Assembly: GCF_945873075.1 (NCBI RefSeq)
Contig: NZ_CAMCBS010000013.1
Coordinates: 1 to 61,485, forward strand
Reading direction: 5' to 3'
Source of the DNA: an uncultured Moraxella sp.
GTDB lineage: Bacteria; Pseudomonadota; Gammaproteobacteria; Pseudomonadales; Moraxellaceae
DNA: 61,485 nucleotides
Position 1 is the first letter of the stretch; every line of letters begins with the position of its first letter. The translations under genes were made by a program, and so were the position numbers. The notes beneath the pieces are model-generated. The model saw only the letters and a program-made list of their open reading frames with translations. It had not been told where the DNA came from and did no database searches. Below, piece by piece: positions 40,374 through 47,646 of the stretch.

Positions 40374-40919
40374 TTAGAATTTTGCAACAAATTCAGCAAA
40401 GCTATTGATAAAGCCTTGTAGCGTGCCTTTGGCTTGTTCAGAAACCAGTTCGCCTTGTTCATTGAACGCACCGGCAAAGATACCACCGACCGCCGCTGCA
40501 AATGGCGCAACAGGCATACTGATATAAGCACTCGCCGCCACTGTACGCAGCGCATCTACGGCACGGTTGCTACCACCTGCATTGACACTCACCAGACCTA
40601 GCGGCTTACCAATCCATAGGCTTTGACCTGCTGGGCGTGATACCACATCGATGGCGTTTTTTAGCATCGCAGAATAGCTACCATTATGCTCAGGTGTCAC
40701 CCAAATCACCGCATCAGCCGCTTTTACCGCTTCACGCACACGAGTGTACTGTGGCACATCTTGGCTGTCTAGGTCACGGTCATATAGGGGCAAATCGCCA
40801 ATTTCTACGATATTTAGCTGAATTGACGCAGGGGCGATTTGTTGTAGATGTTTCACCGCTAGGTGGTTGAATGATGTTGTGCTAGCACTACCAATCAATA
40901 CGGCAACTTGTTTGGTCAT
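40374..40919 (-). CDS. NADPH-dependent FMN reductase / quinone reductase family
   Basis: A 181-residue flavodoxin-fold protein. GSASTTSFNHLAVKHL forms the phosphate-binding loop, and TPEHNGSYSAMLKNAIDVVSRP is the conserved flavin-contacting segment of the NADPH_dep_FMN_red family (ChrR/YieF/azoreductase type). Members reduce quinones, azo compounds or chromate by two electrons, protecting against redox cycling. The ATG at 40919 has AAGGA upstream; 16 extra codons to 40967 are unlikely. Its promoter is a near copy of the pirin promoter (see operators at 41056 and 41908), so both should respond to the same regulator. Confidence 0.9.
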   Translation of the reverse strand: MTKQVAVLIGSASTTSFNHLAVKHLQQIAPASIQLNIVEIGDLPLYDRDLDSQDVPQYTRVREAVKAADAVIWVTPEHNGSYSAMLKNAIDVVSRPAGQSLWIGKPLGLVSVNAGGSNRAVDALRTVAASAYISMPVAPFAAAVGGIFAGAFNEQGELVSEQAKGTLQGFINSFAEFVAKF

Positions 40920-41005
40920 AAGAATTTTCCTTCTTTTTTGACTTGAATTTGTCATGGTTGGATTCATCGGCGTTGATCTGTCGATACTTGCCTTGTCATG
41001 GGTTT

Positions 41006-41071
41006 ATTATCCATGAATTTGTCTGCCACAACAAGCCGAGTTTAAACAATTTAATTTTGCAAATTTGCAAA
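41006..41071 (-). promoter_or_regulatory. Operator and promoter of the FMN reductase gene
   Basis: Minus-strand order: the perfect palindrome TTTGCAAATTTGCAAA (41071-41056), a 21-bp gap, TTGTTG (41034-41029), a 17-bp spacer, and GATAAT (41011-41006). The palindrome centre falls near -65 relative to the expected start site, the usual position for a LysR-type activator. The pirin promoter at 41858-41923 has the identical layout. Confidence 0.75.
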
Positions 41072-41093
41072 GATGGCTTGCTACACAGCTCAA

Positions 41094-41825
41094 TTATTGA
41101 TTGGTGGCACTGTGTAAATCCATCGGCACATCCATCAGCAGAATCTGACTATCGCCAATCGCAGTCACATCAAAGCCATCGGTATCCCACACGCCCAAGC
41201 CGTCTCGCTCATTGAGTACAATTTCACCGATTTTGGCACTGCCTTTGATGACAAATACATACACGCCATTACCATCACGCTTAACATCATAACGCTTAGC
41301 CGTACCATCGGTAAACTCTGCTAGGCTAAACCACGCATCTTGATGAATCCACACGCCTGCATCATCAGGATTTGGCGATAGGATTTGTTGAAAGTCATTT
41401 GGCATGGCACTGTCGGCGATGCGGATTTGTTGATAACGGGGTTCTACGCCATTTTTACGAGTTAAGACCCAAATTTGTAAAAACTTCACCGCACGGTCAG
41501 CATTGGCATTCATCTCACTGTGGCGAATGCCTGTCCCTGCGCTCATCACCTGAATGTCGCCTTGACGAATCACACCGCCATTGCCCATGCTATCACGGTG
41601 CGCCAAATCACCTTCAAGCGGAATAGAGATAATCTCCATATCATTATGCGGATGCGTGCCAAAGCCCTGACCACCTGCAACCGTGTCATCATTAATCACA
41701 CGAAGTACACCAAAGTGCATCCGCTCAGGATTATAATACTCAGCAAAGCTAAAAGTATGGCGACTGTTTAGCCAGCCATGATTGGCAATGCCACGGCTAT
41801 CGGAGGCATGATAAATGGTTTTCAT
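41094..41825 (-). CDS. Pirin-family (YhhW-like) cupin protein
   Basis: A 243-residue bicupin protein. The N-terminal cupin carries the metal-binding residues in FGTHPHNDMEII and SGTGIRHSEMN, giving the His-His-His-Glu set of pirins. E. coli YhhW has quercetin 2,3-dioxygenase activity in vitro; the natural role of bacterial pirins is often linked to redox or electrophile stress. ATG 41825 has TGAG upstream; the alternative GTG four codons earlier lacks a ribosome site. Together with the FMN reductase it is controlled by matching promoters. Confidence 0.92.
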   Translation of the reverse strand: MKTIYHASDSRGIANHGWLNSRHTFSFAEYYNPERMHFGVLRVINDDTVAGGQGFGTHPHNDMEIISIPLEGDLAHRDSMGNGGVIRQGDIQVMSAGTGIRHSEMNANADRAVKFLQIWVLTRKNGVEPRYQQIRIADSAMPNDFQQILSPNPDDAGVWIHQDAWFSLAEFTDGTAKRYDVKRDGNGVYVFVIKGSAKIGEIVLNERDGLGVWDTDGFDVTAIGDSQILLMDVPMDLHSATNQ

Positions 41826-41857
41826 AATTTTACTCACTGTATTAAGTTGATGAGCAT

Positions 41858-41923
41858 ATTATCCATGATTACCATTTTTGCAACAAGATGGGATTTAACA
41901 ATGATATTTTGCAAATTTGCAAA
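41858..41923 (-). promoter_or_regulatory. Operator and promoter of the pirin gene
   Basis: Minus-strand order: the palindrome TTTGCAAATTTGCAAA (41923-41908), a 21-bp gap, TTGTTG (41886-41881), a 17-bp spacer, and GATAAT (41863-41858). Flanking bases are also similar to the FMN reductase promoter (for example CATGGATAAT and ATTTTGCAAATTTGCAAA), which points to duplication. Confidence 0.75.
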
Positions 41924-42143
41924 TATAGCCTAAGACAGTCCCCGGCTTGCCGATGCCATTTAGCTTAGCATCTCATGGCAGATGCTTCATAAAAATCACC
42001 ACAATCCCGTTTTTACGATGACTGTGTGAGGGTTATGCCAAGGATAATAATAACAACTGCGATGATAGCCAAATGCCACAGCTTTTGCCACGCCTACTTA
42101 GATGACGCCAAATGCCAATTATAAAGCGGCATAAACATTCGGT
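41924..42143. other. Intergenic stretch between pirin promoter and dehydrogenase gene
   Basis: No intact gene. On the minus strand, about 42095 down to 42025, the frame AWQKLWHLAIIAVVIIILG ends in a stop after TLTQSS. This resembles the last membrane helix of a lost protein; a stop codon directly precedes it. Confidence 0.3.
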
Positions 42144-43034
42144 TTAGTCATCCAAGATGGCATTGCCATTGGCATCATAATCATAAAAGCCTTGACCGGA
42201 CTCCTTGCCTGTTTTGCCTTGATCGATGTATTCGGCTTTGAGTTTTTGGGTGAATTGTCGCTCAAGTGCATCGCCGGTGCGTTCGGCATTGGCAGAGTGG
42301 ATGGCATAGACGGTACGCAGACCCACGATGTCCATGATCTCAAACGGGCCCTTAGGCGAGCGAGTCGCTTTTTTCCAAACCTTGTCAATTTGATGCGGTG
42401 ACGCTACTTCATTGGCATACAGACGGCTGGCTGCATCAAGCAATGGCACCAGCAGGCTATTCATGATATAGCGTGGCTGCTCTTTATTGAGCACCACAGG
42501 ATCCATGCCCATATCTTTGGCAAACTGCTCAGTTAAGCTGACATACTTGGCATCAGTTTGGGTAGTACCCATGACTTCCACGATGTTCTGCACCCAGATA
42601 TTATTGGCAAAATGCAGTGCCAAAAATCGCTCAGGCGCACCCGTACTGTCCGCAAAGCTACTTGGCAGCAGCGTTGATGTGTTGGTCAAAAAGATAGTAT
42701 GATCAGGCGCTGCCGCACCCACCTGCGCCCAGATTTGCTTTTTGAGATCGAGATTCTCAGGCACCGCTTCGATGATCAGATCGGCAGCACCGACTGCGTC
42801 AATCAGATCACTACTTTGGCTTAGGCGTGCCATCGTCTGTGACAGCTGATCGGTGGTTGCGCCGACTTGCTCTTGGTACACGCCTTGCAAGGTCTCAAAT
42901 CGCTTGGCAGCAGCGGCAAGCGCATCATCATTGATGTCATAGCTGACCACTTCAAAGCCTGCATACGCCGCCTGAAAAGCGATCTGTGCACCAAGTACGC
43001 CTGCGCCGAGTATGGTGACTTTTTTGATTGTCAT
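42144..43034 (-). CDS. 3-hydroxyacyl-CoA dehydrogenase (short form)
   Basis: A 296-residue NAD-dependent 3-hydroxyacyl-CoA dehydrogenase without a fused crotonase domain. The dinucleotide motif VTILGAGVLGAQIA lies at residues 6-19. The catalytic region has NTSTLLPSSFA, then HFANNIW (catalytic His), and the conserved C-terminal domain has PRYIMNSLLVPLLDAA and GPFEIMDIVGL. It acts on 3-hydroxybutyryl-CoA or longer substrates in beta-oxidation or polyhydroxyalkanoate-related metabolism; which one is not clear. AGGGAGAAAGCT precedes the ATG. It stands alone between pirin and DoxX on the same strand. Confidence 0.9.
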   Translation of the reverse strand: MTIKKVTILGAGVLGAQIAFQAAYAGFEVVSYDINDDALAAAAKRFETLQGVYQEQVGATTDQLSQTMARLSQSSDLIDAVGAADLIIEAVPENLDLKKQIWAQVGAAAPDHTIFLTNTSTLLPSSFADSTGAPERFLALHFANNIWVQNIVEVMGTTQTDAKYVSLTEQFAKDMGMDPVVLNKEQPRYIMNSLLVPLLDAASRLYANEVASPHQIDKVWKKATRSPKGPFEIMDIVGLRTVYAIHSANAERTGDALERQFTQKLKAEYIDQGKTGKESGQGFYDYDANGNAILDD

Positions 43035-43155: not shown

Positions 43156-43186
43156 TCAAAAAAATCGCCAGTCAATACCGGCGATT
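43156..43186 (-). terminator. doxX terminator
   Basis: Stem AATCGCC/GGCGATT (43163-43169 with 43180-43186); on the minus strand a TTTTTTTGA run follows. Confidence 0.75.
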
Positions 43187-43191
43187 CAGCG

Positions 43192-43608
43192 TTATTTAAA
43201 CAATTTGGCATCCAATGAATATTTACCAGCACCAATCACCCAATAAATCAAAAACACCATGCAGTACAGTGCCGCCGCTTCGCCTTTATTGACAATGGGG
43301 TTTAGGATCAAATCAAATCCTGAATGGAAATAAAAATACGCCACCGCCATCATGCCCGCCATAATAAAAGCATTGATACGGGTAAATAACCCCAAAATTA
43401 GCAACACACCACCGATCAACTCAAGCGCACCACCAAGCCCCATCAAAGACAGCCACTCAACAGCAGGCTTGCCATTGGTCATCGACAGCGGAAAAGCGAA
43501 TAATTTGACGGTACCATGAACCAAAAACATATAACCGACAATCACCCGAGTGAATAACAAGACCAAATCCTGCATCGGATGTGCGCTGTGTTGTACTGAC
43601 TTGTTCAT
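43192..43608 (-). CDS. DoxX family membrane protein
   Basis: A 138-residue protein with four hydrophobic segments and the family pattern: LLFTRVIVGYMFLVHGTVKLF early, then GLGGALELIGGVLLILGLFTR. DoxX proteins are small membrane partners of thiol/quinone oxidoreductases in several bacteria; the exact role is unresolved. The ATG at 43608 has AGAGG with 5-base spacing and is preferred over a GTG two codons upstream. It lies divergently from the CrgA-like LysR gene, 231 bases away, so the LysR protein may control it. Confidence 0.88.
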   Translation of the reverse strand: MNKSVQHSAHPMQDLVLLFTRVIVGYMFLVHGTVKLFAFPLSMTNGKPAVEWLSLMGLGGALELIGGVLLILGLFTRINAFIMAGMMAVAYFYFHSGFDLILNPIVNKGEAAALYCMVFLIYWVIGAGKYSLDAKLFK

Positions 43609-43839
43609 GATCACCTCTACAATAATTTAACTTTTGATGGATAATGCAGATTACCAAATGCGGTTTGATAATTGCTTTTGGCTTTATTTTAATTGATTTT
43701 GATCATTGAACAAGGTACACTTTTAGAAGTCATCTTTTCAATTTTAGAAAGATGACTATTTGCATTGTACATACTATTACTATCTTATATAATAGTTTAT
43801 GACAGTTTTATCAAATTTTTATCAAAAGAAGTCATCGCC

Positions 43840-44709
43840 ATGAGCCATATTAGCCTTGATGATATCCGCCTGTTTGTTTCTGTTGTCCAAGCAGGTAGCC
43901 TAAGTGCCGCTTCTGATTTGACGGGTGTGCCTGTTTCTCGGCTCAGTCGCCGCTTGACGCAGCTTGAGAGCGCACTTGGCACACAGCTGATCAACCGTGG
44001 CAAAAAAGGCGTGAGTCTCAATGAGCTTGGTGATCAGTTTTTTATCCACGCCCAAAATATGCTCGAAGAAGCCGATGCCGCCATCCAAAGCATCCAAAAT
44101 GGACTTGAAAAACCCAGCGGGCTGCTGCGCATCTCCGCCCCTGTCGATATCGCCCATCGCTATGTCATTCCGTATCTCAATGACTATCTGACCGAGTACC
44201 CTGATGTGATGATTGACATCAATCTTAGCCAACAAAAAGTCAATATGATCCAAGATGGCATCGACATCGCCATTCGTGTTGGCTCAATCGATAATGACAA
44301 TGTCGTCGCCAAACGCTGGCTTAAGATGCGATTTGGCATCTTCGCTACACGCAGTTATATCGAAAAATTTGGCGCGCCCAAAACCCCAAATGACCTATAC
44401 GATCATCGAGTCATCGCTCAGACGCTCAGCCTGCCTTGGCAATTTTATCAAGGCGATCAAGAAATTAAAATCAACCCCCATCCGTTCATCGGCTGTAATG
44501 ACTTTACCGCTGTCGATCCACTGATTTTTCAAGGACTTGGCATCGGCAAGATGACCATCGAAAGCGCACAGCGCCACCCAGAGCTGGTGCACGTGCTTGA
44601 AGATTGGGAAATGGAAAGCAAAACTGTCTCGATGCTCTATTACAAAAATCGTGGCGCCATTCCTGCGGTGCGCAGCTTTATTGATTGGTATTCTGGGTTG
44701 TTTGATTAA
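43840..44709 (+). CDS. LysR-family regulator (CrgA-like)
   Basis: A 289-residue LysR-type regulator with the winged helix-turn-helix at residues about 5-62 (DIRLFVSVVQAGSLSAAS, PVSRLSRRLTQLE) and the substrate-binding domain from about 88. LLRISAPVDIAHRYVIPYLNDYL and DGIDIAIRVG place it in the CrgA/DsdC-like subgroup. In Neisseria, CrgA activates a quinone reductase gene and binds T-N11-A palindromes. The ATG at 43840 fits family N-termini; 25 further codons upstream are open but unlikely. Neighbours (doxX, pirin, FMN reductase, emrAB) make it the best candidate regulator of the palindrome-bearing promoters. Confidence 0.88.
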   Translation: MSHISLDDIRLFVSVVQAGSLSAASDLTGVPVSRLSRRLTQLESALGTQLINRGKKGVSLNELGDQFFIHAQNMLEEADAAIQSIQNGLEKPSGLLRISAPVDIAHRYVIPYLNDYLTEYPDVMIDINLSQQKVNMIQDGIDIAIRVGSIDNDNVVAKRWLKMRFGIFATRSYIEKFGAPKTPNDLYDHRVIAQTLSLPWQFYQGDQEIKINPHPFIGCNDFTAVDPLIFQGLGIGKMTIESAQRHPELVHVLEDWEMESKTVSMLYYKNRGAIPAVRSFIDWYSGLFD

Positions 44710-44823: not shown

Positions 44824-46473
44824 ATGCAAACACCAAATTATCTTGAAAAGCCGCCTAACTGGACCGCCGATGAGCGGCCTGCGCTGCCAGGCTCACCTGC
44901 TAGCATCGCCCACGCTCGTCCGATCGCCATATTGTATTTTATCATCGGGATGTTCGTGACCATCGCAGGCGGTATGGGCAATGGCTTTACTACCGCCAAT
45001 TTGCCTTATATACAAGGGGAATACGGGCTGACGACGACGCAAGCCGCTTGGTTTCCTGCCGCCTATGTCATCGGCAGTATGAGCTCAAGCATTCTTGCGT
45101 ACAAGGCACGGCAGCAGCAAGGTATTCGCTGGTTTACTGAAGTGTCGTTGTTTGCATTTTTGGTGGTGACAGGTCTGCATCTACTCACTCACAGCTATGA
45201 GCTAGCACTACTGGTGCGTGGCTTGAGCGGCTTTGCCGGTGGGACGCTCTCGACGCTTGGACTGTTTTATATCATGCAAGGCGTCAAAAAGCAGTATAAG
45301 CTACACTCATTGTACTTTGCGATGGCGGCAGGTCAGCTTGGCGTACCGCTCGCTTGGGTCATCTCACCGTATCTGCTGTCAGCGGATAACTGGGGTCGGC
45401 TGTATAGCTTTGAGTTTGGATTGACGCTGTGTTGTTTTGCGATGGTGATGATGCTAAAGCTGCCTCGCGGCGTGCGCATACAAGTGTTTAATCAAGGCGA
45501 CATCGTGGCTTTTGTCCTGCTGACGGCAGGTTTTGGTGCTTTGGCAGGTGTGCTAGTACAAGGCCCTATCGTCTGGTGGCAAAATGACCCAATGCTTGCT
45601 TATTGGCTCATCTTTGGCTTTGGTGCGTTGATGTTGGCATTTTTTATTGAGCATCATCGCCGCCTACCACTGGTGGATACACGCTGGCTGACCACGATTG
45701 GCTTATTGCGATTTTTGATGGCATCGATTCTGCTACGATTTTTGATGGCGGAGCAGTCTTGGGCGACGGTGAACTTCCTTAGAAATATGGGCATGGGTAG
45801 CGATCAGTTTGTCGGCTTATACGCCATCATCGTCGCTGGGACTTTTGTCGGTGGCATGGTCAGTGCGATGACTTTTTCGCCAAAGACGGTGTTCATACAG
45901 CTGCTGAGCGCAGGTGCACTCATTGCCATTGCCAGTTATGTTGATGCCAATTTGACCAGTGATGTCCGTCCGCAGAATTTTTATCTTAGTCAATTTCTCA
46001 TCGGCTGTGCTGGCGGTATGTTTATCGGTCCGATGCTATTGGTCGGCTTCGTCAAAGCGATGCTTAAAAGCCCCAATCATATTGCCATGCTAATTATCTT
46101 ATTTACCGCCAGCCAAAATTTCGGCGGTTTGCTTGGTTCATCGTTTTATTCAACTTATCAGCAGCAGCAATTTCAGGTGCATCGTCAAGCAATACTAAAT
46201 GATATGCCATCAAATGATCCACAGTCCACGCTCAGACTTGCTCAGTATCAAGCCAGCTATCGCCCTACACTCACCGACAGCAACTTGACCAGTCAGCAAG
46301 CCACCACGACGCTCAATCAAGTCATCAACCGTGAAGCGACAGTACTCGCCTTTAGTGATGTAATTCGCTTTAATTTTTATTTGGCGTTGGCAGGCATCAT
46401 TTGGGGCTTTGCTCAGATGATCATTGTCAAGCGATATTTAAAGAAAAATCCACTACCCATCGGTCAAAAATAA
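44824..46473 (+). CDS. MFS drug efflux permease, EmrB/DHA2-like
   Basis: A 549-residue major facilitator with about 14 spans, an N-terminal proline-rich cytoplasmic start and a C-terminal periplasmic loop of about 90 residues before the last span. The segment NLPYIQGEYGLTTTQAAWFPAAYVIG corresponds to the DHA2-family motif around TM1-TM2. It lies 21 bases before an EmrA-type adaptor gene, so the pair should form an export system with an outer-membrane channel encoded elsewhere. The substrate is unknown; fusaric acid, hydrophobic weak acids and aromatic compounds are typical of the family. It lies 114 bases downstream of the LysR gene. Confidence 0.88.
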   Translation: MQTPNYLEKPPNWTADERPALPGSPASIAHARPIAILYFIIGMFVTIAGGMGNGFTTANLPYIQGEYGLTTTQAAWFPAAYVIGSMSSSILAYKARQQQGIRWFTEVSLFAFLVVTGLHLLTHSYELALLVRGLSGFAGGTLSTLGLFYIMQGVKKQYKLHSLYFAMAAGQLGVPLAWVISPYLLSADNWGRLYSFEFGLTLCCFAMVMMLKLPRGVRIQVFNQGDIVAFVLLTAGFGALAGVLVQGPIVWWQNDPMLAYWLIFGFGALMLAFFIEHHRRLPLVDTRWLTTIGLLRFLMASILLRFLMAEQSWATVNFLRNMGMGSDQFVGLYAIIVAGTFVGGMVSAMTFSPKTVFIQLLSAGALIAIASYVDANLTSDVRPQNFYLSQFLIGCAGGMFIGPMLLVGFVKAMLKSPNHIAMLIILFTASQNFGGLLGSSFYSTYQQQQFQVHRQAILNDMPSNDPQSTLRLAQYQASYRPTLTDSNLTSQQATTTLNQVINREATVLAFSDVIRFNFYLALAGIIWGFAQMIIVKRYLKKNPLPIGQK

Positions 46474-46494: not shown

Positions 46495-47646
46495 ATGAGT
46501 CAAGATCAGCAAAATACCGATACTACCACCGATGCCACAGGTAAGGAAGCATCCATCCAAAAACCTACTGCCGAGACACCCAAGCTCATCGCCGCCAAAA
46601 AATCGACGATTTTTATCATGTCATTGGTATTTTTGGTGGGTGTGGCAGTCATTTTATGGGTATGGGAAATCCCACCTTTCGTCTCAAACAGCGAGCAAAC
46701 GGATAACGCCTATGTGCGGGGTAATTCCACCATTTTATCATCTCAGATCAATGGCTATGTCAATGAAGTGCTTGTCAAGGATTTTGACACTGTCAAAGCC
46801 GGTCAAGTGCTGATGCGTATCAACACCGCCAATTATGACCAGCAGGTTGTACAGGCCGAGTCTGGTATCACCCAAGCACAGACCAATCTGAACAATCAGC
46901 AACAAGTTATCGAGCAGCGTAAAGCCGACATCAAAGTCGCCAATGCACAGATAAAACAAGCGCAAACGCAGTACGAGCTTGCCAAATCGCAGCTAAATCG
47001 CTTGCTAAAACTGGTCGATATCGGCGCCGTCTCACAAGCTGAAATCGATAACGCTCGTGCCAATCTTAAGTCCAGCGAAGCCGCCATCAATCAAGCCAAA
47101 GCATCTGCTGATGCCGCCACGCAAGCGCTTAAAACCGCCGAAGTTGCTCGCACTGGGCTTGAAGCACAGGTCAAAAGCGCTACCGCATCCGCTCAACAGG
47201 CCAAGACCTATCGTCAGTATAGTGAAGTGGTGGCGCCGATCTCAGGACAGCTTGGTCAAGTTAGCGTACGCAGCGGGCAATTTGTCAGCACTGGCACACA
47301 GCTTATGTACATCATCCCAAAAGACACTTGGGTGATCGCCAATTTTAAAGAAACACAACTTAATCGTATACACATCGGTCAGCCTGCGACCTTTAGCGTG
47401 GACGCTTTGGGCGGCGAAACCTTTACAGGCGTGGTGAATAGCATCTCACCTGCTACAGGCTCAGAGTTTAGCGTCATCAAGACGGACAACGCCACAGGCA
47501 ACTTTACCAAAGTCGTCCAGCGCATCTCAGTACGCATCGACATTAGGCCCAATCAGCCCAAGCTTGATCAGCTGCGGCCTGGAATGTCGGTCATCGCAAA
47601 AGTCGATACCACGCCCCAAAATTCAGAAAAACCAACTTCAAAATAG
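46495..47646 (+). CDS. EmrA/HlyD-family efflux periplasmic adaptor
   Basis: A 383-residue membrane-fusion protein. A polar N-terminus, one membrane span at about residues 38-57, the biotinyl-lipoyl-like domain (TDNAYVRGNSTILSSQINGYV), a long Gln/Ala-rich coiled-coil hairpin (about residues 120-240) and a C-terminal beta-barrel with APISGQLGQVSVRSGQFVSTG and LRPGMSVIAKVDT are all visible. It connects the inner-membrane pump encoded just upstream to an outer-membrane channel. The ATG has CGGAG upstream, and the gene is the distal member of the pump operon. Confidence 0.93.
   Translation: MSQDQQNTDTTTDATGKEASIQKPTAETPKLIAAKKSTIFIMSLVFLVGVAVILWVWEIPPFVSNSEQTDNAYVRGNSTILSSQINGYVNEVLVKDFDTVKAGQVLMRINTANYDQQVVQAESGITQAQTNLNNQQQVIEQRKADIKVANAQIKQAQTQYELAKSQLNRLLKLVDIGAVSQAEIDNARANLKSSEAAINQAKASADAATQALKTAEVARTGLEAQVKSATASAQQAKTYRQYSEVVAPISGQLGQVSVRSGQFVSTGTQLMYIIPKDTWVIANFKETQLNRIHIGQPATFSVDALGGETFTGVVNSISPATGSEFSVIKTDNATGNFTKVVQRISVRIDIRPNQPKLDQLRPGMSVIAKVDTTPQNSEKPTSK

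Follow-up and report, generated by a model that had tools for sequence, protein, structure and literature searches.

Three LysR-type regulators described in other bacteria come closest to the system considered here, a ~70-bp promoter element and a LysR-type gene in a 61,485-bp stretch of DNA from an uncultured Moraxella sp. (contig NZ_CAMCBS010000013.1, positions 1 to 61,485; the whole stretch is referred to below as the window). YhaJ of Escherichia coli controls yqjF (DoxX), yhaK, yhhW (pirin-type) and other genes, acts through a 16-bp T-N11-A box supported by electrophoretic mobility shift and mutant evidence, and responds to hydroquinone and to products of dinitrotoluene (DNT) (PMC5031710, PMC11739112). 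In Pseudomonas aeruginosa, BexR (PA2432) activates an operon that contains the FMN reductase PA1204 and the pirin PA1205 (PMC2796861). The third regulator is CrgA of Neisseria meningitidis (Protein Data Bank (PDB) entry 3HHG), for which PMC6422896 cites action via T-N11-A in the promoter region of crgA and mdaB. In the window, we consider it likely that the LysR-type protein encoded at 43840-44709 binds an operator shared by the promoters of an NADPH-dependent FMN reductase gene, a pirin gene and doxX, and that it aids their transcription in the presence of an inducer. The features concerned are the following.

40374..40919, minus strand: NADPH-dependent FMN reductase family protein, 181 amino acids, predicted target (PF03358, E 1.9e-32)
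41003..41074, minus strand: full element of the FMN-reductase promoter, consisting of the recognition site, the middle part TTGTTTAAA, CTTGTT and the -10 hexamer GATAAT
41056..41071, minus strand: exact TTTGCAAATTTGCAAA palindrome of the FMN-reductase promoter, putative LysR recognition half
41094..41825, minus strand: pirin, 243 amino acids, with a quercetinase-type C-terminal cupin, predicted target (PF02678, PF17954)
41857..41926, minus strand: full 70-bp element of the pirin promoter
41908..41923, minus strand: exact TTTGCAAATTTGCAAA palindrome of the pirin promoter, putative LysR recognition half
43192..43608, minus strand: DoxX family membrane protein, 138 amino acids, predicted target (PF07681; a GTG start at 43614 is also possible)
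43683..43753, minus strand: third, diverged element, upstream of doxX in the doxX/LysR divergent region
43728..43757, no strand assigned: 30-bp inverted repeat (arms of 10 bp) whose dyad axis coincides with that of the doxX recognition site
43840..44709, plus strand: LysR-type regulator, 289 amino acids, proposed binder of all three sites (PF00126, PF03466)

Like the YhaJ regulon, the window combines a gene for a LysR-type regulator with T-N11-A boxes upstream of pirin and DoxX genes, whose control by the regulator is predicted from the sites. The pirin of the window shares 44% identity with E. coli YhhW, and that of a related genome (G101) shares 57%; the window DoxX is 25% identical to YqjF, and an extra predicted target in another relative (G071) is 52% identical to it. 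However, the regulator itself is only 18% identical to YhaJ overall, with a weak match (20%) in the helix-turn-helix (HTH) region, the box differs (TCAAATTTTTTGAAGA in yqjF, as given in PMC11739112, versus TTTGCAAATTTGCAAA in the window), and the predicted window targets, an FMN reductase among them, lie in a cluster with the regulator. No protein of the genome to which the window belongs matches YhaJ better than E 7.7e-9, and a YhaJ search of six genomes returned no match at E<=1e-15. Orthology with YhaJ was rejected because of the low identity, the weak HTH-region match and this lack of a close match in the own genome; the regulator may thus work like YhaJ without being YhaJ. BexR is a LysR-type activator of genes for an NADPH-dependent FMN reductase and a pirin, as is proposed here for the window LysR, but it forms a bistable switch and has many further targets, among them efflux pumps and aprA (PMC2796861). 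CrgA shares the use of T-N11-A, and 3HHG is a structural relative of the window LysR (E 6e-28). The label "CrgA-like" given to the protein by the first-pass annotation is nevertheless loose, as 3HHG is only the fourth-best PDB match. The LysR class of the protein stands: it has the LysR HTH (PF00126, 2.7e-14) and the LysR substrate-binding domain (PF03466, 1.5e-28). CrgA also differs in being described as an octamer and in its target gene, mdaB being a quinone-reductase-type gene.

Both copies of the 16-bp word are present where the first-pass annotation had found them, and a script check showed that each is its own reverse complement and is followed on the minus strand by 21 bp, TTGTTG, 17 bp and GATAAT. 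The two copies are 852 bp apart, and the distance from palindrome to ATG is 136 bp for the FMN reductase (ATG 40919) and 82 bp for the pirin (ATG 41825). The position of the palindrome centre near -65 was reproduced by arithmetic with an assumed start ~7 nucleotides past GATAAT, and T-N11-A occurs in TTTGCAAATTTGCAAA twice (letters 2 and 14, and 3 and 15), although this fit is weak evidence because the DNA is so A+T-rich. As in LysR operators, a T-N11-A dyad thus lies near -65, the start sites being assumed, and the element is placed divergently in five other genomes. The genome-wide search that had been proposed as a check found only these two exact copies, both in the window, in a genome of 2.09 Mb (2,087,468 bp, 60 contigs, 93.6% complete); abundance of the word was not seen.

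A longer element, reading approximately ATCTTTnnnAnnnTTGCAAAAT-N4-TTGnnAAA-N6-CTTGTT-N16/17-TATAAT, includes the palindrome as its upstream part. The similarity, earlier described for the palindrome and its promoter spacing, in fact runs without gaps over ~70 bp across upstream regions set side by side, with G067 apparently one base short before CTTGTG. Columns kept in at least 12 of the 13 sites are A2, C4, T5-T7, A10, T15, G16, A18-A20, T27, T28, A32, T42, T43, T45 and A68. Likewise, the count of two holds for exact palindromes but not for sites, as the third, diverged copy lies upstream of doxX. The recognition site of that copy has diverged yet is still a dyad, sharing its axis with the inverted repeat at 43728-43757, which a pattern scan also called terminator-like. 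CTTTC replaces the CTTTG half in four doxX sites (window, G071, G025 and G101) and in the Bibersteinia trehalosi site, which makes the perfect 16-bp palindrome one variant of the site rather than the rule.

We then used two profiles of the element. The first (R1) is a sequence-only profile trained on six promoters, none from the own genome and each in a cluster with a relative of this LysR. Its three best matches in the whole genome were the pirin (39.1 bits), doxX (37.8 bits) and FMN-reductase (31.2 bits) elements, and the fourth reached 16.8 bits (150 of 1317 first-look candidates were scored); with filters off, the doxX element scored 40.4 bits. Because the training stretches were picked by eye after the window sites and the doxX copy had been seen, this is a ranking test and not a blind discovery. 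For the second profile (R2) we used all 13 sites; scanned against the 149 family genomes, it gave matches at E<=0.001 in 6 of them, identical to the 6 that encode the LysR, and in none of the other 143. The FMN-reductase promoter element scores 50.8 bits with R2, which was trained on that site. In the family scan 12 of the 15 R2 matches were training sites and 3 were new, 2 of which precede a pirin gene (L104:1501-1565 in G067, 21.8 bits) or a YqjF-like DoxX gene (L109:1501-1567 in G071, 24.4 bits, the target 52% identical to YqjF mentioned above); these are candidate unlinked targets in the relatives. R2 was also scanned over a control set of 41 loci. No match at E<=1 was obtained at the 27 pirin loci of genus g9, taken to be Psychrobacter (L017-L043; pirins 61-64% identical), a genus in which the family-wide search found no such LysR, and the FMN-reductase/pirin regions of three members of the Moraxella sp.'s own genus that lack the LysR (G045, G058 and G094) reached at most 11.5 bits.

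Consistent with these scores, the regulator and the site occur together. The LysR (E<=1e-85, at least 55% identical) is found in 6 of the 149 family genomes, namely the own genome, G067, G071, G086, G025 and G101, and the exact 16-mer in 4 (own, G067, G071 and G086), all of which are among the 6; the hypergeometric probability of this overlap is 7.6e-7 for the 149 genomes and 6.8e-4 within the genus (22 genomes). The same genomes thus have both the long element and the LysR, from which it follows that the LysR very probably controls all three genes. G067 has the exact palindrome in the intergenic region of its FMN-reductase gene and a divergent LysR gene, and in G025, G101 and G071 the element lies between doxX and a divergent LysR; the doxX, pirin and FMN-reductase genes of G101 make up a single run that diverges from the LysR gene. 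In G086 an exact palindrome stands 82 bp before a pirin ATG, as it does in the window. G071 has an exact copy ahead of a different pirin gene; the ATG of the open reading frame (ORF) concerned, at L066:4686, is 292 bp away. A second site, with two mismatches, is 90 bp from that ATG, and a one-mismatch copy precedes the G071 FMN-reductase gene by 140 bp (ATG at L059:6496; 136 bp in the window). Outside the family, B. trehalosi, a member of the Pasteurellaceae, has a LysR (54% identical) whose gene diverges from adjoining pirin and FMN-reductase genes, and the intergenic region between LysR and pirin carries the element (41.5 bits with R2, for which it was a training site). Depending on the genome, the element precedes DoxX of two kinds, pirins of three kinds and FMN reductase. 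The first-pass proposals of a single regulator for the FMN reductase and the pirin, and of the gene at 43840 as that regulator, are both supported by the joint occurrence and by the presence of the element in divergent LysR/target intergenic regions of other genomes. Overall, the assignment of the element to this LysR gene is well supported by the comparison of genomes, and doxX is predicted to be a further target.

Several observations weigh against this interpretation or limit it. Five of the six positive genomes belong to one genus, so the probabilities overstate independence. The window scores of both profiles are not fully blind, owing to the training stretches picked by eye, and the six R2-positive genomes include training sites, so that the informative parts are the 0 of 143 and the genome-wide ranking. 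Up to 16 candidates per genome were scored for the LysR, and up to 32, under stricter filters, for R2, so misses are possible. A promoter scan did not report the promoter hexamers, which match poorly (8 of 12). The stored sequence of G086 has an interrupted LysR frame although the palindrome is kept, and the FMN-reductase site of this genome scores weakly (27.4 bits). Nor does every target homologue have the element: the upstream region of the G025 pirin reaches 19 bits (L015:1395), and the first G086 pirin (74% identical) has no element match at E<=1. The third new R2 match (L107 in G067, 21.0 bits) falls within an unrelated ORF, presumably hisC, indicating that false positives occur near 21 bits. 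The G025 pirin site (19.0 bits) and those at L066:5597 (16.6 bits) and L068:4126 (15.8 bits) are doubtful and are not claimed.

In textbook LysR control, a dyad near -65 is combined with a second contact reaching to -35, the -35 hexamers are poor, and regulator and target are divergent. The layout in the window fits this pattern. Inducer-dependent activation of the three transcription units is the most likely mode of action. The palindrome would be the recognition half of the operator; a LysR tetramer would place one dimer on the dyad near -65 and the other on the downstream half, TTGnnAAA...CTTGTT, which ends over the weak -35. When it carries a small-molecule inducer, LysR would aid RNA polymerase at the promoters of the FMN-reductase gene, the pirin gene and doxX, and it probably controls its own divergent promoter via the doxX/LysR copy. 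The observed part is the element with its three copies, the 16-mer being unique to them in the genome, the link with this LysR across genomes and the position ahead of pirin, DoxX and FMN-reductase genes; binding, the tetramer layout, activation and not repression, autoregulation and a quinone-like inducer are what we infer. The three products would form a redox/quinone-detoxification set like that under E. coli YhaJ, and the regulon perhaps responds to quinone-like or electrophile compounds.

The LysR could instead be a repressor released by its inducer, or mainly an autoregulator, without activating the three genes. We regard this as unlikely: the downstream part of the element does overlie the -35 region, but the centre near -65 and the weak -35 hexamers fit an activator by the established rules for LysR proteins. 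N. meningitidis CrgA is reported to repress as well as to activate, and CrgA of P. aeruginosa SJTD-1 represses (PMC6422896), whereas YhaJ (PMC5031710) and BexR (PMC2796861), which have similar targets, are activators.

Quite unlikely, in our estimate, is that another regulator encoded elsewhere binds the element and that the LysR gene is merely its neighbour. The binding of LysR to the element is a prediction from sequence, and the genome has further LysR genes, for example a 42% identical paralogue by two pirin-like genes on contig 10. However, element and LysR share the same 6 of 149 genomes, the element lies in the LysR divergent region of the window, G071, G025, G067, G101 and B. trehalosi, and a search of the genus (22 genomes, E<=1e-70) found the paralogue in just two members, G000 and G071, so that it fails to explain G067, G025 and G086.

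The first-pass annotation had also read the likeness of the flanking bases as a sign of promoter duplication. That a recent duplication produced the identical palindromes without common regulation is very improbable, and duplication as the main cause was rejected: the FMN-reductase and pirin promoters are identical at 52 of 75 positions, which ranks fifth among the 78 pairs, and in operator-flank identity the pair is about twelfth. Elsewhere the element precedes different kinds of pirin, DoxX and FMN reductase, with conservation at the operator columns. Duplication is thus not needed, although the identical 16-mer and a shared 11-mer over the -10, TCATGGATAAT, keep some place for it.

The words are A+T-rich, but chance, or an abundant DNA-uptake or architectural repeat, can be dismissed as the source of the palindromes, because 0.0009 to 0.016 exact copies would be expected in 2.09 Mb (Markov orders 0-3 trained on the window) against the two found and because the exact 16-mer is confined to 4 of the 149 family genomes. 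The palindrome pair is not due to chance. Nine further places in the genome match the 16-mer at two mismatches; the eight inspected (C52 was left out) have no common theme, five lying within ORFs (L004, L006, L007, L008, whose ORF has only 98 amino acids, and L009) and three between ORFs (L003, L005 and L010).

A tentative reading, to which we give slightly less than an even chance, is that a LysR of a different subfamily took over the job of YhaJ, a rare regulator with its own 70-bp operator acting on a gene set whose functions stay constant while the genes themselves change. Control of DoxX plus pirin by a single quinol-sensing LysR would then have arisen more than once. Unrelated LysR proteins seem repeatedly to have assembled genes for DoxX, pirin and flavin reductase, which suggests that these genes, whose physiological roles are poorly understood, cooperate against quinone-type stress. 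The subfamily looks rare: in 369 gammaproteobacterial genomes (E<=1e-80, at most six candidates per genome scored, so that misses are possible) the LysR was found in the own genome only, and in plasmid records its matches were 33% identical or less (14 records at E<=1e-40). This rare subfamily now gains a concrete predicted operator and target set, testable with one protein and three promoters. The 16-mer TTTGCAAATTTGCAAA was not met in the literature searched, in which most subscription journals were not covered; as far as that literature goes the operator is new, while LysR regulons as a class are already known. What results is a good prediction of a regulon, one open to test, and not a novel type of system.

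None of the 25 NCBIfam models listed for the protein reaches its own cut-off, and assignment to the YafC or PRK14997 equivalogs was rejected (163.2 versus 470 bits and 144.8 versus 380 bits). In the HTH region SRLSRRL is invariant in five aligned element-bearing relatives and reads SKLSRRL in B. trehalosi, whereas the paralogues, 42-44% identical, read SHISRHL or SHLSRHL. The paralogue of the own genome lies beside its two pirin-like genes at L067:3854-7581, and in G071 (L068) a 42-44% identical paralogue lies beside isochorismatase-like, FMN-reductase-like and pirin-like genes; the same kinds of gene are thus gathered round a second LysR. A weak R1 match (13.5 bits), not claimed here, stands directly before another pirin on contig 10 (C10:42599-42669, or L067:6600-6670) and is possibly a decayed or low-affinity fourth site, or chance.

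Two genes follow the LysR gene in the window.

44824..46473, plus strand: EmrB-like MFS transporter, downstream of LysR (TIGR00711, E 2.5e-9, 36.4 bits, cut-off 230)
46495..47646, plus strand: EmrA-like periplasmic adaptor (TIGR00998, E 1.3e-72, 244.6 bits, cut-off 390.8)

These matches, with PF07681 for doxX, bear out the names that the first-pass annotation had given to the neighbours, doxX and an emrAB-like pump. The pump was rejected as a box-bearing target, as R1 gave no match at E<=1 between 43754 and 51313; with no element of its own found, the emrB-like gene would be at most co-transcribed with the LysR gene. Just 3' of doxX, a terminator-like stem-loop at 43162-43187 on the minus strand (11 pairs, then a T-run) suggests that doxX is transcribed alone and that the 3-hydroxyacyl-CoA dehydrogenase gene at 42144-43034 is outside its operon.
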